Shown here one piece after another: positions 15,495-40,777 of a stretch of DNA of 41,024 nt (positions within the stretch are counted from its first letter, which is position 1; the number at the start of each line of letters is the position of its first letter). Source of the DNA: a virus; IMG/VR virus record IMGVR_UViG_3300045135_003520, positions 1-41,024 of that record; one strand, 5' to 3'. The notes beneath the pieces are model-generated. The model made no database searches, had not been told where the DNA came from, and saw nothing but the letters and a program-made list of their open reading frames with translations. The position numbers and the translations under genes were made by a program.

Positions 15495-15806
15495 ATGGGT
15501 ACATGGAGCCAACCAAATACCGCTAAAAAATCACATCAGTTAAAGGAATTGATGTGCAAGCCAATCTTGAAACATCAAGCTTTCCAAAAACTGTATCACC
15601 TTGTCGGTGATGATGACTTATTCGATTTTATCGAAGAGCTAGAACCTACTGATGATGTTCGTTATTTAGTGCAATCACATATCAAAACAACACTGAATAA
15701 TTTAAACCACTCTTTCCTCAAGTGGGAGGAAGATGCCATCACAACATGTGAGTCATTACTGCCAGCTAGTGCAATTAATTTGCAGCCGCGGACTGAATCG
15801 AAATAG
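15495..15806 (+). CDS. Small hypothetical protein convergent with the methyltransferase
   Basis: A 103-residue protein starting MGTWSQPNTAKKSHQLKELM, chosen because GAGG lies eight bases before this ATG. The same frame opens earlier (TTG at 15435). It contains LYHLVGDDDLFDFIEELEPTDDVRYLVQSHIKTTL, an acidic helical stretch. I do not recognise the family. Its last 32 bases overlap the end of the ParB-methyltransferase gene on the other strand, so transcription from the two sides converges here. It is probably the last gene of the small plus-strand cluster. Confidence 0.6.
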   Translation: MGTWSQPNTAKKSHQLKELMCKPILKHQAFQKLYHLVGDDDLFDFIEELEPTDDVRYLVQSHIKTTLNNLNHSFLKWEEDAITTCESLLPASAINLQPRTESK

Positions 15807-17037
15807 CAAGATCATCGAACAACAGCTCATCACTTTCACGAACAGCCTGTTCACCAGAATAGTCTTGCCAGCGCCTGACAATAACATCCACGTATTTTGG
15901 ATCCAGCTCAATTAAGCGTGCAGCCCGTCCTGTTTTTTCACTGGCGATTAGGGAGCTACCAGAGCCGCCAAATATATCTAAAACAATATCTCGGCTTTTA
16001 CTCGAATTACGAACTGCTCGCTCAACCAACTCGACAGGTTTCATTGTCGGGTGAAGATCGTTTTTTACCGGCTTATTAAAAAACCAAACGTCACCTTGGT
16101 CTCGCGCACCACACCAAAAATGATCATTGCCTTCACGCCATCCATATAAAATAGGTTCGTATTGACGCTGATAATCTGAGCGCCCAAGCGTGAAAGTATT
16201 TTTTGCCCACACAATAAACGTCGACCATTTACCGCCCGCATCACGAAATGCTTTTTGCAGCGTATCAAGCTCACTGGATGACATGGCTACATAACACGCT
16301 CCTTTGGTCACGCTTAGTAGATTGGTTAATGAATCTTTTAAAAACTGATAAAAATCATCACCCAGATTGTCGTTCATAATACGTCGATCTTTGCCGCGCA
16401 TTTTGTCTTTGGCATTGTTGCCATAGTCCACGTTATAAGGTGGATCAGTGAACGCCATGTCGGCAAGTTCACCATTCATTAGCTTTTCTAAATCTTGCTT
16501 GCTGGTCGAGTCGCCACACAACACGCGATGATTTCCCATGACCCAAATATCACCAGGGCGACTTATAGGTTCGTCTTCCACTTCTGGAATTTCGTCCTCG
16601 TCAGTTTCGCCTGCCTGATCATCGGCACCTAATAGTTCGTCCAATTCTTCATCTGAAAAACCAATCACATCGAGATCAAAGCCAAGATCGCCAAGCTCTT
16701 CTAGCTCGAGCTTTAATAGCTCATCATTCCATCCAGCATTTTCAGCAATTTTGTTATCGGCAATAACCAACGCACGACGTTGAGACTCTGTCAGGTGATG
16801 TAAAACGATGACAGGTACGCTATCTAATCCAAGTTGCTGGGCAGCCATCAATCGACCATGTCCCGCGATAATGACATTGTCATCACCCACTAAAATTGGA
16901 TTAACAAATCCAAACTCAGCAATAGAACCCGCGATTTGTGATACCTGAGTATCATCATGTGTTCTCGCATTTTTGGCATAGGGGATTAAACGTTGAAGCG
17001 ACCAGTGCTCCACCGTTTCAACAGCGTTAAGTTGCAT
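15775..17037 (-). CDS. ParB-domain / DNA methyltransferase fusion
   Basis: A 420-residue protein. Residues about 10-135 are a ParB/Srx-like domain: LIPYAKNARTHDDTQVSQIAGSIAEFGFVNPILV and IIAGHGRLMAAQQLG, the catalytic GHGR box. An acidic linker follows (139-160), then a DNA methyltransferase with catalytic DPPYNVDYG (198-206) and the AdoMet-binding DIFGGSGSSLIASE (354-367). The order DPPY before FxGxG is the beta class, N6-adenine or N4-cytosine. Such fusions are common in phages without a partner endonuclease, as here, and probably protect phage DNA or mark it. It is the last gene of the early operon, after a 246-bp gap with repeats. Confidence 0.93.
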   Translation of the reverse strand: MQLNAVETVEHWSLQRLIPYAKNARTHDDTQVSQIAGSIAEFGFVNPILVGDDNVIIAGHGRLMAAQQLGLDSVPVIVLHHLTESQRRALVIADNKIAENAGWNDELLKLELEELGDLGFDLDVIGFSDEELDELLGADDQAGETDEDEIPEVEDEPISRPGDIWVMGNHRVLCGDSTSKQDLEKLMNGELADMAFTDPPYNVDYGNNAKDKMRGKDRRIMNDNLGDDFYQFLKDSLTNLLSVTKGACYVAMSSSELDTLQKAFRDAGGKWSTFIVWAKNTFTLGRSDYQRQYEPILYGWREGNDHFWCGARDQGDVWFFNKPVKNDLHPTMKPVELVERAVRNSSKSRDIVLDIFGGSGSSLIASEKTGRAARLIELDPKYVDVIVRRWQDYSGEQAVRESDELLFDDLAISIQSAAAN

Positions 17038-31228: not shown

Positions 31229-31297
31229 TGAATTAAAGGGTTGCCTAAACAAACTCTTTCAGCTTAGACGGGAAAATATTAATTGGATCAAAGAACA

Positions 31298-34150
31298 ATG
31301 AAAATGGAAGAAAGACAACAACTGGACAAGAACTTCATAGGCAGGATTCTCGGTACTGACACCATATGCATTGAAAATGATAGCGTACAGGTTGTTAAAA
31401 AAGGCGTTGTTATTTCATCGATTTCGCTTAAAGAAAGTAAGATTTTCGCAGCTTATGAAAAAGGCCTTTTTGGTGGAAGACTTATTCTTGAAGACAGCGG
31501 TCGTAAAATCCATTTAAGTTTTTTGAAGCCTGATGGCTCTGCAGCATTCTTAAAAAACATCAACAAAATTATCTCCAATAATATTTGCAAATACGTTACT
31601 TCATCATTCAGTACCTTTACAAAGTTTGTATTCGAAGAATACCCAAGAGATTCAAGATTTGACCTTCTTTCTAACTTATGTAGTCACGTCTCAAAAGCTT
31701 ATAAAAATCAAGAGCAGCTGTGGGAAAAATATATTGCTAATGACGTTATCGAAAAAGCAGCATATCTTGTTTCACACTACCCGATTAATCCAAGCGTGCT
31801 TCGATCAAAACACGAGTCCATATTTTTAGAGGAAAGAAAAACATTTTTTGATCGTGTTGAATCAAACCCTTTGACGCAAGAACAACGCTTAGGAGTACTT
31901 CGCTCAAATGACAAAAATATGGTGCTGGCTGCGGCGGGCACTGGAAAAACATCTGTAATTGTTGCGAAAGCCTTGGACTTAATTGATCGCAGGTTGGCTG
32001 CACCATCTGAAATTCTAGTATTGGCATACAACAGGGATGCCGCTGAGGAGCTTCAGGAGAGACTCGCTGATAAAGCTAAAAAGAGCAATATAGACTTAGA
32101 GACTCCGCCACAAATATCAACATTTCATGCCCTAGGCAGAAAGTTGCTACGAGAAACTGGAATCTCTACTCATATGAGTGTTTTTACCGAAGATAACTTC
32201 AAATTAAAGCAGTGGGTTACCAAATGGATTGAAGACTACCTGAGAGAAGACACATCTCGAGTTTATGACTTGATAGAACTGTCTACTCAGCCTGCCAATC
32301 CGTTCGAGTTCAAATCAAAGGCAGATTATGAAAGGTATATTAGGGACAACGAATTTAGAACCTTAAACAACGAACTGGTTAAGGGTTATCAGGAGTTACA
32401 AATTGCGAACTTCCTTTTCATAAACAGGGTTCAGTACAGGTATGAAGCTCCTTACGTCAGTAAGCGTCGAATAGATATCGGGTTTGATTACAAACCTGAT
32501 TTTCATTTAGAAGGAACCAATATTTACATCGAGCATTTTGGCGTAGACCGGAATGGGAAAACTCGCCCTGACATTGATGCAATAAAATATTGTGAATCAA
32601 TGGAAAGCAAGCGCGTCTTGCATAAAGAATTCGAAACAATATTGATTGAAACGTTCCATTATGAATGGTGTGAAAACACCCTGCTCTCAGGACTTAACGA
32701 GAAGCTCGTTGCAAAGGGGGTGAAGCTAGATCCAATGGATCCGAATGAAATATTCGAAAAGCTAAACCAGGAGGGACATATCGCAAACTGGAGTGACCTA
32801 ATGAAAAAAGCGCTCCAAGCAATCCGTGTTGAAAGGCTTACAAAGGCGCTGATGAAAAGTCGGTTTGAGAATGCAAATATTCACCGACCTGAAAAGTACG
32901 CCGATTTATTAGATGACCTACATAAAGGCTACGTAGCAGAGCTCAATAGCCAAAACGCGATTGACTTCGATGACATGATCATTCGAGCAATACAAGTTGT
33001 GAATCAAGGACAATTCAAGCCGGAATGGAAATACATCTTAGTTGATGAGTTTCAAGATATCTCAGCATCTCGAATGGAGTTCATTCAAGCTCTTGTTGAG
33101 AAAGGGCCTGATCCATCTTTGACTGTTGTAGGTGATGACTGGCAGTCAATATATCGTTTCTCTGGTGGCAAGTTAGAGCTAACAACCAGATTTGGAGAAA
33201 TGGTTGGTGCTTACACGGAGACCAAGCTTCAAAAGACATTTCGCTACAATAACAGCATTGCTAACACCGCTGGGCAATTCATCATGGAAAATTCCGAGCA
33301 ATTCAAAAAGCATATAGAAACCCATAGCAGAGTAAATCAACCACAAGTCTTTTTGCTTGATGACAAGGTTGGAAACCAAGGAGGAGTTTATGAGAGGGTT
33401 TTAGAAGTCGTACAAAAAATACGTGAGAATGACTCTTCGGGAAGCATTTCAATTATCGCTCGCTATAATTATTTACTTCAAGAAGCTAAGCAAACGATTT
33501 CCAGCGCCAGATTAAGCAAAGGTATAAATTTTTGGAGCTTTCATCGCTCTAAGGGATTGGAGGCTGATTACTGTATTTTAATCGGGTTCTTTCAAGGAAA
33601 AAGCGGGTTTCCAAACGAAAATAGAAATGAAGCAATCATTGAAGCATTACTACCCAGCTTGGATTCGTACCCCCACTCGGAAGAACGAAGGTTGCTTTAT
33701 GTAGGAATAACTAGAGCAAGACACAAATCATATATAATTGCTGATCCAACAGCACCATCAGACTTTATCACGGAACTTCTAGCTCCAAAGTACGAAATAA
33801 ATATAGTATCCAAAACATTCCAGGAGCAGTATCGAAAGATTTTCAAGTGCCCGAATTGTGAAGACGGTTACCTTCGGTTAGTTAGCGGAAAATTTGGGGA
33901 GTTTTATTCCTGCAGTTCAGGGCATGGCTGTGACGTTGGAAAGGCAAGGGTCTGTACCAAATGTAGAGCACCTTCTATTGATAAACGCAATGCAAGTGTA
34001 TGCAATAACATTGCTTGCAGTAATACTATGAAGATATGCGACAAATGCGGTCGCCCAATGAAAATGCGAAACGGGAAGTTTGGCCAATTTTGGGGATGTA
34101 CTGGTTATGGGATTAAAGATGATCAGTGCAAAAACACCAATAGAGCTTAG
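31298..34150 (+). CDS. SF1 helicase (UvrD/HelD-like) with nuclease-like insert and zinc ribbons
   Basis: A 950-residue accessory helicase. Walker A is LAAAGTGKTSVI (about 212-222). Motif II is ILVDEFQDISASRMEF (about 580-595), and later motifs include VVGDDWQSIYRFSGG and the C-terminal YVGITRARHKSYI. Between them, about residues 380-475, is an insert, YKPDFHLEGTNIYIEHFGVDRNGK, which looks like a PD-(D/E)XK core. The end, from about 850, has two topoisomerase-type Cys4 ribbons: CPNCEDGYLRLVSGKFGEFYSC and CDKCGRPMKMRNGKFGQFWGC. I start at the ATG at 31298; a TTG at 31283 is the alternative. It lies 69 bp after ImmA/IrrE on the same strand. Confidence 0.88.
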   Translation: MKMEERQQLDKNFIGRILGTDTICIENDSVQVVKKGVVISSISLKESKIFAAYEKGLFGGRLILEDSGRKIHLSFLKPDGSAAFLKNINKIISNNICKYVTSSFSTFTKFVFEEYPRDSRFDLLSNLCSHVSKAYKNQEQLWEKYIANDVIEKAAYLVSHYPINPSVLRSKHESIFLEERKTFFDRVESNPLTQEQRLGVLRSNDKNMVLAAAGTGKTSVIVAKALDLIDRRLAAPSEILVLAYNRDAAEELQERLADKAKKSNIDLETPPQISTFHALGRKLLRETGISTHMSVFTEDNFKLKQWVTKWIEDYLREDTSRVYDLIELSTQPANPFEFKSKADYERYIRDNEFRTLNNELVKGYQELQIANFLFINRVQYRYEAPYVSKRRIDIGFDYKPDFHLEGTNIYIEHFGVDRNGKTRPDIDAIKYCESMESKRVLHKEFETILIETFHYEWCENTLLSGLNEKLVAKGVKLDPMDPNEIFEKLNQEGHIANWSDLMKKALQAIRVERLTKALMKSRFENANIHRPEKYADLLDDLHKGYVAELNSQNAIDFDDMIIRAIQVVNQGQFKPEWKYILVDEFQDISASRMEFIQALVEKGPDPSLTVVGDDWQSIYRFSGGKLELTTRFGEMVGAYTETKLQKTFRYNNSIANTAGQFIMENSEQFKKHIETHSRVNQPQVFLLDDKVGNQGGVYERVLEVVQKIRENDSSGSISIIARYNYLLQEAKQTISSARLSKGINFWSFHRSKGLEADYCILIGFFQGKSGFPNENRNEAIIEALLPSLDSYPHSEERRLLYVGITRARHKSYIIADPTAPSDFITELLAPKYEINIVSKTFQEQYRKIFKCPNCEDGYLRLVSGKFGEFYSCSSGHGCDVGKARVCTKCRAPSIDKRNASVCNNIACSNTMKICDKCGRPMKMRNGKFGQFWGCTGYGIKDDQCKNTNRA

Positions 34151-34316: not shown

Positions 34317-34535
34317 ATGCAACAAACAAACCCGTTATCTCCGCACAGAATGACTCCCGAACAACGCGTTCATGAGGTCGCTAACATCATCGCTCAAGGC
34401 ATAATCAGGCTTAGAGCCCCCCATTTAAATAAGGCACAATTATTGGACTCAGATAGCAATTTTTCACTTGCTATGTCTGCCTACCGAAGCGTTCATGTTG
34501 AAACAGAGAACGCCAACACTTCGGAGGAAAAATGA
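34317..34535 (+). CDS. Small hypothetical protein of the recombinase module
   Basis: A 72-residue protein: MQQTNPLSPHRMTPEQRVHEVANIIAQGIIRLRAPHLNKAQLLDSDSNF, then a tail with TSEEK. Proteins with this TPEQRV...AXGIIRL core commonly precede DUF2924 genes in prophage recombinase modules; I know of no defined function. I start at the ATG at 34317 because the earlier ATG at 34278 lies inside the inverted repeat. Its stop overlaps the DUF2924 start by four bases, so the three genes probably form one operon. Confidence 0.75.
   Translation: MQQTNPLSPHRMTPEQRVHEVANIIAQGIIRLRAPHLNKAQLLDSDSNFSLAMSAYRSVHVETENANTSEEK
34486..34498 (+). repeat. GAAGCGTTCATGT motif, copy 3
   Basis: The third identical copy lies inside the coding sequence of the small gene before DUF2924, ending 33 nt before the ATG at 34532. 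It is read there as part of RSVHV, so here the motif is also under coding constraint. Confidence 0.55.
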
Positions 34536-35023
34536 GCTCAAACATCATATTCGAACCATCATCATCAGCAGTTGCGCAAATAGCCCAGCTATCAGATATG
34601 ACAATGGACGAAATTAAATCATTGTGGCGACAACTTTACCGCAAAGAGCCACCAACCCATATTCGATCCTTCCTAGAGAAGCGCTTGGCTTTTCGATTGC
34701 AAGAAGTCGAATTTAGGCGCGCACATCAAAACTTTGCCGACAAAAACGATCGGCGTATTAATGCCATCGTAAATACAGGCAAAAAGCCTCTGCGAGATCG
34801 ATACCCAAAACCTATACCTGGAACTGTTTTAAGCCGCATCTACCAAGAAAAGGAACACAAGGTTACCGTCACCCACGACGAACAGTTTGAATTTGAAGGC
34901 CGGATTTATAAAAGCCTTTCAGTAATCGCAAGAGAGATTACTGGTACACGCTGGTCCGGGCCGCTGTTCTTTGGCCTGAGAAAAGAAAACCATGATAAGA
35001 AAAAAAAGCGGAGTAAAAAATAA
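34532..35023 (+). CDS. DUF2924 protein
   Basis: A 163-residue DUF2924 protein. The N-terminal helical part (AQIAQLSDMTMDEIKSLWRQLYRKEPPTHIRSFLEKRLAFRLQE) is the family signature. It is followed by the basic RYPKPIPGTVLSRIYQEKEHKVTVTHDEQFEFEGRIYKSLSVIAREITGTRWSGPLFFGL, whose last third is a typical short beta-sheet region. The family sits next to serine recombinases in many prophages and may act as an accessory DNA-binding factor. GGAGGAAAA precedes its ATG, and it is coupled to the recombinase gene (stop and ATG share one base). Confidence 0.9.
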   Translation: MSSNIIFEPSSSAVAQIAQLSDMTMDEIKSLWRQLYRKEPPTHIRSFLEKRLAFRLQEVEFRRAHQNFADKNDRRINAIVNTGKKPLRDRYPKPIPGTVLSRIYQEKEHKVTVTHDEQFEFEGRIYKSLSVIAREITGTRWSGPLFFGLRKENHDKKKKRSKK

Positions 35024-36369
35024 TGTCAGAACAAATCAAAAAACGACTTCGCTGTGCAGTCTATACACGCAAGTCAACAGAAGAGGGGCTGGACCAAGAT
35101 TACAACTCAATCGATGCACAACGCGATGCTGGCCATGCTTACATAGCCAGTCAACGAGCTGAGGGTTGGATTCCCGTTGAGGATGATTATGACGATCCTG
35201 CATTTTCAGGCGGCAACATGGATCGCCCAGCGATGAAGCGATTACTTAAAGATATCCAAGATGACAAAGTCGATGTCGTGGTGGTTTACAAAATTGATCG
35301 GTTAACACGAAGCCTGACTGACTTCTCCAAAATGATTGAAGTGTTCGAACAACATAACACTTCTTTTGTATCCGTCACTCAGCAATTTAATACCACTAAT
35401 TCAATGGGGCGGCTGATGTTAAACATTCTCCTCTCATTCGCGCAATTTGAAAGAGAGGTAACCGGTGAACGTATTCGAGACAAGATTACCGCCAGCAAGA
35501 AGAAAGGCATGTGGATGGGCGGCATCCCACCGCTGGGGTATGACGTAAAAGACCGACACCTGATCATTAATCCAAAAGAAGCGAAATTAATTCAGCAGGT
35601 GTTTAAACGGTTTACAGAGATTGGCTCAACAACACTATTGTACAAAGAACTAAGACTAGAAGGCGCAACCAGCAAATCATGGACAACTCAAGACGGGCGT
35701 TTCCGCCCTGGCAAGCCAATCGACAGAGGCCTTATCTATAAGCTACTGCACAATCGCACTTACCTCGGCGAACTCAGGCACAAAGATCAATGGTACCAAG
35801 GCAAGCACGACGCCATAATTGATCAAAAACTTTGGGACGATGTTCACTCCATACTCGCAGTGAATGGCCATAAGCGCGGCAATTATACTCGCGCTAAAAT
35901 ACCATTCCTTCTGAAAGGCATGGTATTCGCCGAAGATGGTCGAGCGCTGACTACTTGGAGTTCAACTAAGAAAAAGAGTGGCCGACGGTATCGCTACTAC
36001 ATCAGCACTCGCGATACTAAGGAATATTCTGGCGCATCAGGCTTACCGAGAATACCCGCCGCTGAATTGGAGTCGGCCGTAGTCGAGCAAATCAGAGGTA
36101 TTCTCAAAGCACCGCCCATTACTCAGCAGGTTGCATCGATTGCCAATCAGCAGGGCCACGAAATTGATGAAGCTCAGGTCACTGTCGCACTCAATAAAAT
36201 CGATAACGTCTGGGAGCAACTATTCCCCGACGAACAATCTCGGATTATCAAACTGTTGATCGAGAAGGTCATTGTTAAGCCCGACAATATTGATATCAGG
36301 CTTTGGGAAAATGGTGTTGAGCGCCTCGCGCTAGAAATTACAGACTCAGCTAAGCAGGAGGTGGCATGA
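35023..36369 (+). CDS. Large serine recombinase, short form without canonical zinc ribbon
   Basis: A 448-residue serine recombinase. The catalytic domain has CAVYTRKSTEEGLDQDYNSI with Ser18, and YKIDRLTRSLTDF with Arg93 and Arg96. The LSFAQFEREVTGERIRDKI helix is typical. The recombinase domain from about 165 has GIPPLGYDVKDRHLIINPKEA and LLHNRTYLGELRHKD. At the usual zinc-ribbon position (CGxCG) the sequence reads LLKGMVFAEDGRALTT, with no cysteines, so that domain seems altered. It probably integrates or excises the prophage, or inverts a segment; its sites are not identified. Confidence 0.92.
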   Translation: MSEQIKKRLRCAVYTRKSTEEGLDQDYNSIDAQRDAGHAYIASQRAEGWIPVEDDYDDPAFSGGNMDRPAMKRLLKDIQDDKVDVVVVYKIDRLTRSLTDFSKMIEVFEQHNTSFVSVTQQFNTTNSMGRLMLNILLSFAQFEREVTGERIRDKITASKKKGMWMGGIPPLGYDVKDRHLIINPKEAKLIQQVFKRFTEIGSTTLLYKELRLEGATSKSWTTQDGRFRPGKPIDRGLIYKLLHNRTYLGELRHKDQWYQGKHDAIIDQKLWDDVHSILAVNGHKRGNYTRAKIPFLLKGMVFAEDGRALTTWSSTKKKSGRRYRYYISTRDTKEYSGASGLPRIPAAELESAVVEQIRGILKAPPITQQVASIANQQGHEIDEAQVTVALNKIDNVWEQLFPDEQSRIIKLLIEKVIVKPDNIDIRLWENGVERLALEITDSAKQEVA

Positions 36370-36812
36370 GTAAAGGTAGCGGCTTTAAAATTGAAATGAG
36401 TCAGTCAGGTGACTCAAGCGTTGTTGAAGCCAGTAATGGCAAACTCAGCATATCAGTCCCCATCAGCCTAAAACGCAGAAGTGGGCGACAACTGATTACC
36501 TTACCCGATGGTAAAACCCATGAGCTCAGACCATGGGACACAGATCCAACGCCTCTGCAACTTGCTTTGGCCAGAGGTCATTGCTGGCTTGCCATGCTGG
36601 AAACAGGCCAAGTTAAATCACTTAGGGAAATTGCCGAGAAAGAAGGCATCGACAACAGCTACGTTAGCCGAATGGTCAACCTAACGACACTTGCACCGGA
36701 TATCGTAGAAGCCATTCTGGACGACAAATTGCCACCAACCGTGACCTTGTTTGATCTTGCTGTTGATCCGCCTAGATTGTGGAACCAACAAAGGCAAAAG
36801 CTGCGCATTTAA
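36366..36812 (+). CDS. ParB-HTH-like protein of the recombinase module
   Basis: A 148-residue protein. The middle contains GQVKSLREIAEKEGIDNSYVSRMVNLTTLAPDIVEAILDDKLPP (about 82-125), a clear ParB/KorB-like helix-turn-helix. The first third includes PISLKRRSGRQLITLPDG, which I have seen in proteins next to serine recombinases of this kind. It overlaps the recombinase stop by four bases, so it is co-translated. A role as an accessory or regulatory DNA-binding protein for the recombinase, perhaps on the nearby dyads, is inference. Confidence 0.85.
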   Translation: MSKGSGFKIEMSQSGDSSVVEASNGKLSISVPISLKRRSGRQLITLPDGKTHELRPWDTDPTPLQLALARGHCWLAMLETGQVKSLREIAEKEGIDNSYVSRMVNLTTLAPDIVEAILDDKLPPTVTLFDLAVDPPRLWNQQRQKLRI

Positions 36813-37029: not shown

Positions 37030-37485
37030 ATGAAAACACTACTAACATTACTACTGCTTCCTTTTATTCTTATCATAGGGCTTATAAAAGGAATTTTCGG
37101 TGGAGCCTTGGGCGCTAAAAACCTCAAATACATCCCCAAAATAATAGAACATTTAGCCAATGATCCATCACGACAAGGCGCTGCATTCCAAGAAATAAAA
37201 TTCCCTCAAGTGCTAGCCTATGCAGAGGAAATGGGAACCGTCACTCAAAAAGAATCCAATTTTTTTAAGTTTCTAATAACGATAAACAGCAGTACATATT
37301 TGGTAAAGGTAAGCAGGGCTCATGATGGTTCAAACTGTGCTGTTTTTCATTCAGAGGAAACATCAGGCACCACTCCAAACATAACACCTATCCATAAACC
37401 AAAGAAGGAAGAAACTACCTCCCCAAATATCATTGAACAATTAAACACTGCTTATGATAAACATGAACAGAAATGCAGATGGTGA
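37030..37485 (+). CDS. Membrane-anchored hypothetical protein, first gene of polymerase-like operon
   Basis: A 151-residue protein with a hydrophobic N-terminus (MKTLLTLLLLPFILIIGLIKGIFGGALG, residues 1-28) that looks like a signal anchor or short membrane hairpin. A small soluble domain follows, with KYIPKIIEHLANDPSRQGAAFQEIKFPQVLAYAEEMG and NSSTYLVKVSRAHDGSNCAVFHSE. The last 35 residues are polar and probably disordered. I do not recognise a family. AAAGG precedes the ATG by six bases, and the gene ends 3 bp before the polymerase-like gene, so they share a transcript. It may tether the module to the membrane; that is inference. Confidence 0.7.
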   Translation: MKTLLTLLLLPFILIIGLIKGIFGGALGAKNLKYIPKIIEHLANDPSRQGAAFQEIKFPQVLAYAEEMGTVTQKESNFFKFLITINSSTYLVKVSRAHDGSNCAVFHSEETSGTTPNITPIHKPKKEETTSPNIIEQLNTAYDKHEQKCRW

Positions 37486-37488
37486 AAA

Positions 37489-39336
37489 ATGAGAGCCTCA
37501 AGAAAAACAATTACAATTGGAAGGCATGATAGCAACTTCAATTTTTTACGTGATTGCAAGAGGAAAAATAAAAGGATACGGATAGGATCACGCAACCCAA
37601 ATGAATTGGCGTGGATCAATTACAATATAATATCCACAGATTCGGACATACTATTATTTGAATCAAGGGAGTTTAAACCAATTGATTTTTTTGAGTTTGC
37701 GAAAGAAAATTCACTAAAAAACATCATGGTTCTCACACGTAAGGAACACGACTATATATTTGAGCTTTCTATTGATTTTGATATAAAAATAAAGATTTTT
37801 GAAGAATGCTTTCCGTTTTTTGATGAAATAAGATATGTCAGCAATTTGAGAGACAATATTAACGAGGCGAAAAAACTTCTAAACGAATGCAAGTCTCTAA
37901 ATCTTAATGGTGGATCTGCATTTAGATATATATCAACGTTATTTCAATATAAACAAGAACGTAAAATAAGGTATAAGAGTGAACTAGACAATATAGTATA
38001 TTTCTCTTGCCTCCCGCCATACCAAGAAGTTTTCAAAGCTAAGGAGTCTCGAAAAGACCGATTAGTCTTAGCATTGGATTTTAATGCAATGTTTTCTGAT
38101 TGTTTATTAGGCAGCTTTCCCAACCCTAAAAATTTAATATTTTCAAAATTCAACCATGATGACTACTATAGTAAACAATTAAACGATGGCTTTTATAGAG
38201 CCAAACTTATAAACGCAAGAAATACTTTTTTTCTCAAAAACCACCCATTTAGATACAGTAAATCCAATAAATCATACAACTTTAATTTATTAGAAGGCGA
38301 TTCAATTGAGGTTTTCCTTCCTAAAGAAGAAATAGATTATTATTCAAATTTCTTTTCAACTGTAGAAATTATCGAAGGAATTTACTCTGAAAGTCAGATC
38401 AAGCACCCTCTATCAGATATAGCAAAAAATATATTTAAAGAAAGAAAGTCATTCCCTTCTGGAAGCCCACGATCCAAACTTGCAAAACTAAAAGCCAACA
38501 TAATATCAAGCCTTGGAAACCCCAAAAGGTTTAAAGAATATTATTGCAAAAATAAATCAGACATCATTTCAAAAACAGAAGAACTTCTTAGTATTGAATT
38601 TGACAAAAAATTAAGCCTAGAACAAAAACTTGAACTCGCAAAAAGCAGCAACAGAGTGCAAATTTGTGACGATGAAACTAAGAGTTTGAAATTTAAAATA
38701 TTTGATACGAGAAACCACGAATCGATTTACACTCTATATTCAAAGATGATTTCAAACTCTAGAATAAAAATGATCAAACTCATCGAAAAACTCTACAAAA
38801 TAGACTCACTAGAACTATGTTATGCCAATGTTGACTCCGTACATATATCGATAAATAAGAATGACGTAGACAGCCTCTATAATTTACTCTCCTCGGAAAT
38901 ATCAGATAACATCGGAGGACTAAAAGTTGAAGCAGTAGCATCGTCTGCGTATTGGTTCGAACTAGGCAGATACTGGCTACTAAACGCTAAAAATATCGTC
39001 AAGTACAGCAACTACCTTTTCAATCAGGCTCATAGCAAAGAACATATAACAACCAGACGTAGAATAAAGAAAGCTGCATCGCTATATGGCTATAGGTATG
39101 TCAAAAGCTTCAATATGAACATATACAAAACATTTAGTTTTAAAAAACTACTAAAACCTATTGATAACATTGACAATATATCGTACGAGCGGTACGGTTT
39201 AGAGGATGTACTCAGTGCATCAGTAGCAAGCACTTCTGTTAGCAAAGAGAAGGTTCGAAGTCATTCTTTGAAGTCATCATTGCTTCAAGAACTTGCTACC
39301 GTTGAGTGTTCTTCGAACATTACACATAAATTGTGA
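37489..39336 (+). CDS. Family B DNA polymerase-like protein (protein-primed type), variant motif C
   Basis: A 615-residue AT-rich protein. Palm motifs resemble phi29-type protein-primed polymerases: motif A VLALDFNAMFSD with D197; motif B KLAKLKANIISSLG at 330-343 (phi29 KLMLNSLYG); motif C LCYANVDSVHISI, where the YxDTDS box reads Y445-A-N-V-D449-S. After motif C comes LKVEAVASSAYWFELGRYWLLNAK, which parallels the phi29 segment with W and KYL. The first 190 residues show no exonuclease motifs. The main metal-binding Asp residues are kept, while the first Asp of DTD is Asn. It could be a polymerase or primer-making enzyme of a defence system. The homology is by eye and needs a profile search. 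Confidence 0.68.
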   Translation: MRASRKTITIGRHDSNFNFLRDCKRKNKRIRIGSRNPNELAWINYNIISTDSDILLFESREFKPIDFFEFAKENSLKNIMVLTRKEHDYIFELSIDFDIKIKIFEECFPFFDEIRYVSNLRDNINEAKKLLNECKSLNLNGGSAFRYISTLFQYKQERKIRYKSELDNIVYFSCLPPYQEVFKAKESRKDRLVLALDFNAMFSDCLLGSFPNPKNLIFSKFNHDDYYSKQLNDGFYRAKLINARNTFFLKNHPFRYSKSNKSYNFNLLEGDSIEVFLPKEEIDYYSNFFSTVEIIEGIYSESQIKHPLSDIAKNIFKERKSFPSGSPRSKLAKLKANIISSLGNPKRFKEYYCKNKSDIISKTEELLSIEFDKKLSLEQKLELAKSSNRVQICDDETKSLKFKIFDTRNHESIYTLYSKMISNSRIKMIKLIEKLYKIDSLELCYANVDSVHISINKNDVDSLYNLLSSEISDNIGGLKVEAVASSAYWFELGRYWLLNAKNIVKYSNYLFNQAHSKEHITTRRRIKKAASLYGYRYVKSFNMNIYKTFSFKKLLKPIDNIDNISYERYGLEDVLSASVASTSVSKEKVRSHSLKSSLLQELATVECSSNITHKL

Positions 39337-39352: not shown

Positions 39353-39369
39353 GGAGGGCTATGCCCTCC
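39353..39369 (+). promoter_or_regulatory. Stem-loop between polymerase-like and SSB-tip genes
   Basis: GGAGGGC-TAT-GCCCTCC forms a perfect seven-pair stem that buries an AAGGAGG ribosome-binding sequence. An ATG in the loop opens a 20-codon leader frame (39361-39423) ending nine bases before the likely start of the next gene. This has the look of a translational control element, though no U tract follows. Confidence 0.45.
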
Positions 39370-39431
39370 GTTTATTCTACCTTTCGGTCCTTGAAGATAT
39401 TTTCACGGACGTATATATTTTGAGGTTTGGT

Positions 39432-40499
39432 ATGAGTTATTACAACTCGAAATTTGATCTGGATTTCAAGCAGAGCTTCTCATCAAGCTACGTCAACTTT
39501 ACTGATGACGAAATAAGTAATATGGCTCTAAAGATTCTGTCAGAGTTAACAAAGGTTGACGACCATAGCGATCAAAAGTTCCTTAGTTTATTGAAAAACA
39601 AGAAGATTCATCAACAGCTAATCGACAAATCTTTTGAAGTCAATCAACGCTACAATGAAACTTATATACGTTATCTAAAGTCTTCTAAATTACTCGATCT
39701 ATTTAATTCATCCTCTGAGTTATTACGAATTTCTGATAGCGAATCAAAGAAGAGGCTTGTTTATTCAAGATTAAGAAGAGCATCATATAATAAAGAAATT
39801 AACCGGTACGCTGAATACGAAAACATACCTTTAGAGTTCGCATTATTATCAGTTGACAGAGACTGCATTAAACACTTAGTTGGTTTCTTTCTAAATAAGT
39901 ACCTGAAGATCACCTTCAATACTGAAATTTTGGATATCTGCAAAAGAAATACTTCACGTTGGCAAAGTAATACCAAATTGCTAACACCCTATGAGCGAAC
40001 GGGTGAATTACAAACGTACTTATATTCTCTATGCAATAAGCACAAGGGCAGTGAATTACAGATCCCTTCAAAATTAATGAGAATCATCTTATCTACAGCA
40101 AGATTGCACTTCATCATTATGGATGAAGCCAACTTGAATCCGAACGACCTACTGCTACTGCTGCAAAAGCAGAAAGAATCTGCCGAAAATGAAGATGCTA
40201 TCGGATATTCAAACTTTCATAATGGCAATAGCGTTTCCAGAATGCAGAATAAGAAATACATAAAAAACTGGAGGAAGCGTCATCTAATGCCGTTTTTACT
40301 TGAGTCAGATGAACTTGAGTACTTATCAGAGCTCAATGATGCTGATCCTATGCTTGACGTAAAGCTGGCACTTTTAGATAGTCAACTTCTCACAGTCTCG
40401 GATCTACTTTCATGTAATTTTTCAGGAATTCAAACGCAGCAATCTACCCTGACTCCTCAACCAGCTTCAGATGACTTTGATGATGATATTCCTTTCTAG
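39432..40499 (+). CDS. Unrecognised protein ending in an SSB-type C-terminal tip
   Basis: A 355-residue protein of unknown family. It is helical and charged, with SESKKRLVYSRLRRASYNKEINRYAEYENIPLEFALLSV and a later LQIPSKLMRIILSTARLHFIIMDEANLNPNDLL. The last 45 residues are a flexible Gln/Thr/Ser-rich linker ending PASDDFDDDIPF; the final eight residues equal the E. coli SSB tip. That tip is the docking site for many DNA-repair and replication proteins. I choose the ATG at 39432 (GAGG six bases upstream). A GTG at 39333 overlapping the previous stop would add 33 residues and pass through the stem-loop. Confidence 0.72.
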   Translation: MSYYNSKFDLDFKQSFSSSYVNFTDDEISNMALKILSELTKVDDHSDQKFLSLLKNKKIHQQLIDKSFEVNQRYNETYIRYLKSSKLLDLFNSSSELLRISDSESKKRLVYSRLRRASYNKEINRYAEYENIPLEFALLSVDRDCIKHLVGFFLNKYLKITFNTEILDICKRNTSRWQSNTKLLTPYERTGELQTYLYSLCNKHKGSELQIPSKLMRIILSTARLHFIIMDEANLNPNDLLLLLQKQKESAENEDAIGYSNFHNGNSVSRMQNKKYIKNWRKRHLMPFLLESDELEYLSELNDADPMLDVKLALLDSQLLTVSDLLSCNFSGIQTQQSTLTPQPASDDFDDDIPF

Positions 40500-40535: not shown

Positions 40536-40733
40536 TCATCTTACCGGTTTCGATGTAGACTGTCTCAAGCATCTGGCTTCATATGCCTCAACGTCCTTTT
40601 CCCGATACATAACGCGCCCCTGTAGTTTCAAATACCTGGGACCAATGCCTTCGGAACGCCACCGCTCTAAAGTCGCTTCACTCACGCCCCAGCGATTCGC
40701 CAGCTGCCTCTGATTCATATGGATTACCGTCAT
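40536..40733 (-). CDS. AlpA/MerR-like helix-turn-helix protein, copy 2
   Basis: A 65-residue protein, MTVIHMNQRQLANRWGVSEATLERWRSEGIGPRYLKLQGRVMYREKDVEAYEARC, nearly identical in its core to the early-operon protein at 25706-25915. The DNA has many synonymous differences, so it is an old paralogue, not a recent copy. The ATG at 40733 has AGGAG upstream. It runs leftwards toward the end of the AT-rich operon. Its position by the presumed prophage end suits an excisionase or an attachment-linked regulator. Confidence 0.85.
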   Translation of the reverse strand: MTVIHMNQRQLANRWGVSEATLERWRSEGIGPRYLKLQGRVMYREKDVEAYEARCLRQSTSKPVR

Positions 40734-40766
40734 AAAAACTCCTGTGCTGAACGATTTGGTAACCAC

Positions 40767-40777
40767 CATGAACGCTC
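40767..40777 (-). repeat. Partial GAAGCGTTCATG motif upstream of HTH copy 2
   Basis: GAGCGTTCATG on the minus strand matches the 13-base motif at 14366, 15453 and 34486 except for one missing A and the last base. It ends 33 nt before the start codon at 40733, the same spacing as the other copies. Confidence 0.4.

Follow-up and report, generated by a model that had tools for sequence, protein, structure and literature searches.

Near the right end of a viral DNA stretch lies a gene whose product ends in DFDDDIPF, the exact C-terminal tip of bacterial SSB, directly beside a gene for a polymerase-like protein. The locus raises the question of whether the two proteins form a system, and of what the tip says about its work. 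The stretch analyzed here (IMG/VR record IMGVR_UViG_3300045135_003520, positions 1 to 41,024) comprises 41,024 nucleotides and is referred to as the window; the tip-bearing protein is referred to as the partner. The features discussed are summarized in Table 1.

Table 1. Positions of the features of the polymerase-partner locus within the window
Feature	Position	Strand	Remarks
Integration cluster	34532..36812	+	DUF2924 (34532-35023), large serine recombinase (35023-36369), phrog_14161 (36366-36812)
151-aa ORF	37030..37485	+	N-terminal hydrophobic segment; ends 3 nt 5' of the polymerase gene
Family B (phi29/DNA_pol_B_2-type) DNA polymerase	37489..39336	+	615 aa; well-supported assignment from fold, motifs and profiles
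Hairpin GGAGGGCTATGCCCTCC	39353..39369	+	Terminator-like, weak; between polymerase and partner
TTGAAG-17-TATATT	39391..39419	+	Promoter-like, weak; directly 5' of the partner ATG
Partner protein	39432..40499	+	355 aa from ATG 39432; homologous to the partners of 13 other loci
Homology region of the partner	39741..40295	+	Approximately residues 104-288; common to the partner family
Linker SGIQTQQSTLTPQPASD	40422..40472	+	Rich in Q/T/P/S; precedes the tip; no counterpart in homologues
DFDDDIPF	40473..40496	+	Identical to the SSB C-terminal tip
HTH_17 gene	40536..40769	-	Excisionase/AlpA-like; right end of the window

The window represents a prophage. It encodes a terminase, portal, head protease, major head protein, baseplate and tail fibre, as well as a primase/helicase of its own. 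Since the phage thus has its own primase/helicase, the polymerase was rejected as the phage's replicase and the module in the window is cargo. It sits past the integration cluster and ahead of the excisionase-like HTH gene, with a GC content of 0.33 (polymerase) and 0.36 (partner) against 0.47 for the late phage genes. No convincing terminal repeats were found around the module copy in the window, and an Rfam search of the window gave no match, with sub-threshold matches only at the right end. At the DNA level the integration region matches Vibrio and Marinomonas plasmids most closely, and the host leaning taken from these matches is towards marine gammaproteobacteria. The 151-aa ORF upstream of the polymerase was considered as a conserved third component and rejected, being without a homologue at the other polymerase loci; no relatives were found beside other polymerases or in plasmids, and its membership in the module is therefore doubtful. 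Elsewhere in the window, positions 15775-17037 (minus strand) encode a ParB-like/DNA methyltransferase fusion (PHROG 498, E 3.5e-164).

The polymerase and its partner protein

The initial annotation had called the neighbour of the tip gene polymerase-like, and structural comparison bears this out. Foldseek searches with the polymerase model returned 83 matches at E <= 1e-3, the best ranked all being family B polymerases, and the best PDB match was 2ex3, the phi29 DNA polymerase-terminal protein complex (E 1.7e-10, probability 1.00). Top BFVD matches belong largely to protein-primed lineages, e.g. GA-1, His1, Tectiviridae and bidnavirus-like viruses. Good confidence in the AlphaFold2 model is confined to the palm (residues ~186-490, pLDDT mostly 70-87); the N-terminal part has pLDDT < 50. 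In profile searches PF03175 (DNA_pol_B_2) matched two of ten family members (best E 8.5e-5) and the PHROG DNA polymerase profile matched one (E 2.6e-4); PF03175 did not match the window polymerase itself, and single-sequence profile searches with the window polymerase gave no match. A direct profile search of the PDB returned nothing for polymerase or partner, and it was the fold comparison alone that identified the polymerase. Alignment with hhalign to the phi29, PRD1 and Cp-1 polymerases yielded one short segment only.

Motif A of the window polymerase reads D197-F-N-A-M-F (family form D197-x-N199-x-M) and motif C reads C444-Y-A-N-V-D449-S-V-H (family form CYxN-x-D449-S-x-H). D197, K333, D449, S450 and H452 are invariant in the 12 aligned polymerases, so that the metal-ligand Asp of motif A (D197) and the second Asp of motif C (D449) are kept throughout. 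The full motif C form YxDTDS is not present, N447 replacing the first D in 12/12. Of motif B (KxxxNSxYG), K333 is invariant and NSxYG is absent. The canonical 3'-5' exonuclease DxE was not found in the N-terminus, where the invariant acidic residues are D51, E86, E105 and D167. Based on the Foldseek ranking, the PF03175 and PHROG matches and the invariant motifs, assignment of the protein to family B, on the phi29 side, is well supported, and the catalytic metal ligands are kept in this putatively active enzyme.

The partner has no family in Pfam, PHROG, PADLOC or NCBIfam. An alternative GTG start at 39333 would extend it to 388 aa. Its predicted structure is all-helical, with no strands and no OB fold, at low confidence (pLDDT 52.8); a Foldseek-type fold search with this poor model gave no usable match. 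The SSB domain PF00436 is absent from the whole window, partner included. Both results agree with the earlier remark that the rest of the protein is not an obvious OB fold. A partner-family HMM built from 12 other-locus partners, with the window left out, found the window partner at E 9.4e-23 over approximately residues 104-288. Within this region R125, E130, Y187, R189, R217, R224, I277, W280 and R283 are invariant. Homology stops at about residue 288, beyond which the window partner has a tail of its own.

Distribution and surroundings of the two-gene module

Homologues of the polymerase were collected in several ways: tblastn of plasmids gave two distant homologues, an alignment-based scan of viral contigs gave L003 and L004, and more loci, both in viral contigs and in genomes, came from searching at the DNA level for the invariant motif W[FL]E[LP]GRYWL. 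When polymerase or partner was used as a single query sequence, scans of viral contigs found nothing, nor did tblastn in phages. In total, 14 distinct loci were identified (the window, L001, L002, L003, L004, L009, L010, L011, L012, L013, L014, L016, L018 and L021). The partner adjoins the polymerase in all 14, upstream in 13 and downstream in the window. Partners at the other loci are ~305-330 aa long and are encoded directly 5' of the polymerase, often overlapping it. Gene order in the window is thus reversed relative to the 13 other loci, and a terminator-like hairpin lies between the genes. Such hairpins are weakly enriched in the window (5 sites vs 2.2 in shuffles), and promoter-like sites, also weak, are no commoner than in shuffles. 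HMMs built without the window recover both window genes, the polymerase at E 1.6e-87, and the two-protein system proposed from the sequence of the window is borne out by the pairing in 14/14 loci. Since all 13 other polymerase loci also encode the partner, polymerase and partner constitute a real, rare and obligate pair carried as mobile-element cargo.

The rarity of the pair is seen in chromosomes. New polymerase loci were found neither in 369 gammaproteobacterial genomes (0/368 others) nor in 401 genomes of the Sphingomonas order (0/398 others), and E. coli genomes contained no polymerase locus. Three of the 13 homologous loci (L012, L016 and L021) hold broken copies, suggesting frequent inactivation. 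Stops or frameshifts interrupt the polymerase genes of L012 and L016, and in L021 (L021:3586-5628, minus strand; also L042) an insertion element divides the gene of the partner.

The module occurs in varied surroundings. BREX genes (brxA/B/C) adjoin it in L035, the type I restriction-modification genes hsdM/S/R lie directly upstream in L038, and PD-Lambda-5_A is found 1.4 kb away in L039; known defence genes are thus near the module in 3 of 13 loci as a raw count. Prophage ends carry the module in L003, L004/L044 and L009/L043. An integrase is directly adjacent in L003 and L040 (a phage integrase in the latter), a relaxase and an integrase are near in L041, a tyrosine recombinase is near in L002 and umuDC is found in L036. 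The same module was observed at prophage ends in three IMG/VR records (L009/L043, L006 and L008), and the enterobacterial prophage copy of L009/L043 adjoins malX/malY, which points to insertion at an enterobacterial site. Near the module in both the window (31283-34150) and L038 (L038:12608-15451) is a gene for a UvrD helicase whose C-terminus carries topoisomerase-type zinc ribbons; the two loci are unrelated, and the helicases match each other at phmmer E 4e-89. PADLOC gave no match for polymerase or partner. Judged by neighbourhood and rarity, the pair likely has a part in conflict, be it with phages or with other elements. Searches of a literature library turned up no description of defence by a family B polymerase, and the Hna paper holds no passage on a defence enzyme contacting the SSB tail.

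The SSB tip and linker of the partner

Reading of the ORF established that the partner ends in ...TQQSTLTPQPASDDFDDDIPF-stop, with DFDDDIPF following a flexible linker, as had been noted from the sequence. Based on composition, the chance of this exact C-terminal octamer is ~7e-11 per protein. The last 15 residues of the window partner carry a net charge of -5. In the 13 homologues the corresponding residues are basic, with net charges of +1 to +7, and none of the 13 has the tip. The linker and tip stand in place of the basic tail of the homologues, and the GC content of the tail is 0.43 against 0.36 for the partner gene. Because no homologue carries the tip and homology ends near residue 288, the tip is a C-terminal alteration specific to this lineage. 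The initial annotation had stated that homologues lacking the tip would speak against it, and tipless, basic-tailed homologues are what the comparison gave; the tip is not a core feature of the family. That annotation was correct as to both the tip and the two-protein system; it errs only where the tip is regarded as the feature that defines the system.

With no tip-bearing homologue, the function of the tip cannot be inferred from conservation. The nearest relative of the window in the polymerase tree is L009 (31% identity, clade support 100/100), which is too distant for selection on the tip to be judged. A gamma-directed scan with the polymerases of the window and L009 gave no new locus.

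The tip was also followed outside the module. A DNA pattern for DFDDDIPF-stop gave 76 matches in 75 of 185 gammaproteobacterial genomes, and the reversed-pattern control gave none in the same genomes. All 30 chromosomal tip genes that were read are ssb (27 by motif, 3 by eye). Given these 30 genes and the empty control, DFDDDIPF-stop is close to an SSB signature in gammaproteobacterial cellular genomes. Among the first 80 tip-bearing ORFs read in viral contigs, ~44 cluster with SSB and ~36 fall outside; among those outside are a DEAD/ResIII helicase and families with 13, 6, 4 and 2 members. The 13-member family has no Pfam match. Tip-bearing ORFs of viral contigs come from L078-L157; examples from families that do not cluster with SSB are L105:11286-13040 (minus strand), L107:4477-5226 (plus strand), L084:3120-3593 (minus strand) and L097:936-1616 (plus strand). 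Distantly related phage SSBs may account for some of the viral tip proteins that fall outside the SSB cluster; the DEAD/ResIII helicase cannot be an SSB. The DUF669 SSB of HK620 ends in the SSB-like NDYPPF, and its tail is required for working with Sak4 (PMC5928155). Judged from these sequences, phages seem to make wide reuse of the SSB docking tip, and its presence on several viral families outside the SSB cluster suggests a reuse of the SSB docking code that could be mined systematically.

Possible functions and comparison with known systems

The reading that we prefer, with a probability of about 0.5, is that of a terminal-protein-primed-like PolB cargo module, probably for defence, in which the partner of the window lineage has exchanged its tail for the SSB docking tip. 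The partner would prime or load the polymerase, with the invariant Tyr187 as a candidate priming residue, and the pair would make DNA that protects the bacterium, or the resident prophage, against competing phages or mobile elements. In a lineage resembling marine gammaproteobacteria, the basic C-terminal end would have been replaced by an SSB-type linker and DFDDDIPF. The tip could then dock on host proteins that recognize SSB, e.g. PolIII chi, PriA, RecQ, RecO and ExoI, and docking may bring these proteins to the DNA product or the polymerase to SSB-coated sites. The wider claim, that the pair represents a new immune or inter-element conflict system of a protein-primed-like PolB and a priming partner, with one lineage of partner having taken the host SSB docking tip and thereby connecting directly to the SSB interaction hub of the host, is put forward tentatively.

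Gene order and protein sizes would suit a vestigial or minimal self-replication module, comparable to those of tectiviruses, linear plasmids and pipolin-like elements, in which a terminal protein and a protein-primed polymerase travel with an integrase and have no defensive role. The integrases adjoining the module in L003 and L040, the tyrosine recombinase near L002 and the broken copies in L012, L016 and L021 are consistent with such an element. Most loci, however, have no adjacent integrase and no other replication gene or capsid gene of their own, the contexts are unrelated (prophage ends, beside BREX, behind hsdR) and the window copy lacks convincing terminal repeats, and we regard this explanation as rather unlikely. 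Still less probable is an accessory role in DNA repair or recombination, in which a lesion-bypass polymerase and its loading factor would work with the host replisome through the SSB tip. The SSB tip is a replisome docking signal, umuDC adjoins the module in L036 and the UvrD/zinc-ribbon helicase is found near it in the window and L038; against this, the module is sporadic and rare in both sets of genomes searched, resides mostly on mobile elements and near defence genes, and its homologues have no tip.

Two further explanations concern the tip itself. That it is an accident, or a non-functional graft from the end of an ssb gene that is uninformative on the work of the protein, is suggested by its absence from all homologues, by the end of homology at about residue 288 and by the raised GC content of the tail. 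The linker and tip nevertheless have the composition of real SSB tails, and both are preserved right up to the stop codon, the terminal position that the tip needs for binding. The same tip is found on further phage proteins that do not fall in the SSB cluster, a helicase among them, which argues that the graft is useful. We consider an accidental tip rather unlikely. That the partner is a divergent phage SSB would account for tip and linker, and distant SSBs whose tails resemble that of SSB are indeed known from phages (HK620 DUF669; PMC5928155). PF00436 gives no match, however, the prediction is all-helical without strands, and no homologue of this strictly polymerase-linked family has an acidic tail. 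On the helical prediction, the lack of PF00436 and the basic-tailed, polymerase-linked homologues, the partner was rejected as an SSB, a reading that we consider very improbable.

Among known systems, those of phi29 (gp2/gp3), PRD1 (P1/P8) and Cp-1 are similar to the module in polymerase fold, in motif A and in a motif C with a DSIH-like signature. In phi29, PRD1 and Cp-1 the gene for the terminal protein immediately precedes that for the polymerase. The module partner agrees with these terminal proteins in position and size: a gene for a protein of ~230-320 aa is likewise directly upstream in 13/14 loci, often overlapping. The module differs in that its partner has no detectable terminal-protein sequence match (hhalign probability 0.04 against known terminal proteins); the terminal proteins of phi29, PRD1 and Cp-1 are themselves only 14-19% identical to each other. 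Its polymerase is without canonical 3'-5' exonuclease motifs and NSxYG and has N for the first D of motif C; in the window, moreover, gene order is reversed and the polymerase is not the replicase of the host phage. With piPolB of pipolins the module shares a PolB gene carried by bacterial elements that are integrated and in some cases have a tyrosine integrase next to it. It is set apart from these, by description, in having a dedicated partner at every locus and in that no stand-alone element was recognized. The window partner resembles bacterial SSB (PF00436) in its exact DFDDDIPF and Q/P/S/T linker, but is predicted to be helical without an OB fold, and its polymerase-linked family is tipless elsewhere.

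The nearest functional analogy is found in the defence reverse transcriptases, where DNA synthesis is the immune output (PMC11077055, PMC12632851). AbiA, AbiK and the DRTs are, like the module, cargo of mobile elements, and DNA synthesis as immune output is shared as an idea; unlike them, the module has a family B polymerase rather than a reverse transcriptase and no PADLOC match, and its role in defence is putative. The module is a two-gene cargo without earlier description, and the pair is testable in laboratory strains, where the SSB tip offers a ready probe of the host proteins used by the system. Should the pair prove to be defensive, DNA made as an immune output would be the product of family B polymerases as well as of reverse transcriptases, and the proposed conflict system, if true, would be the DNA-polymerase counterpart of the defence reverse transcriptases.
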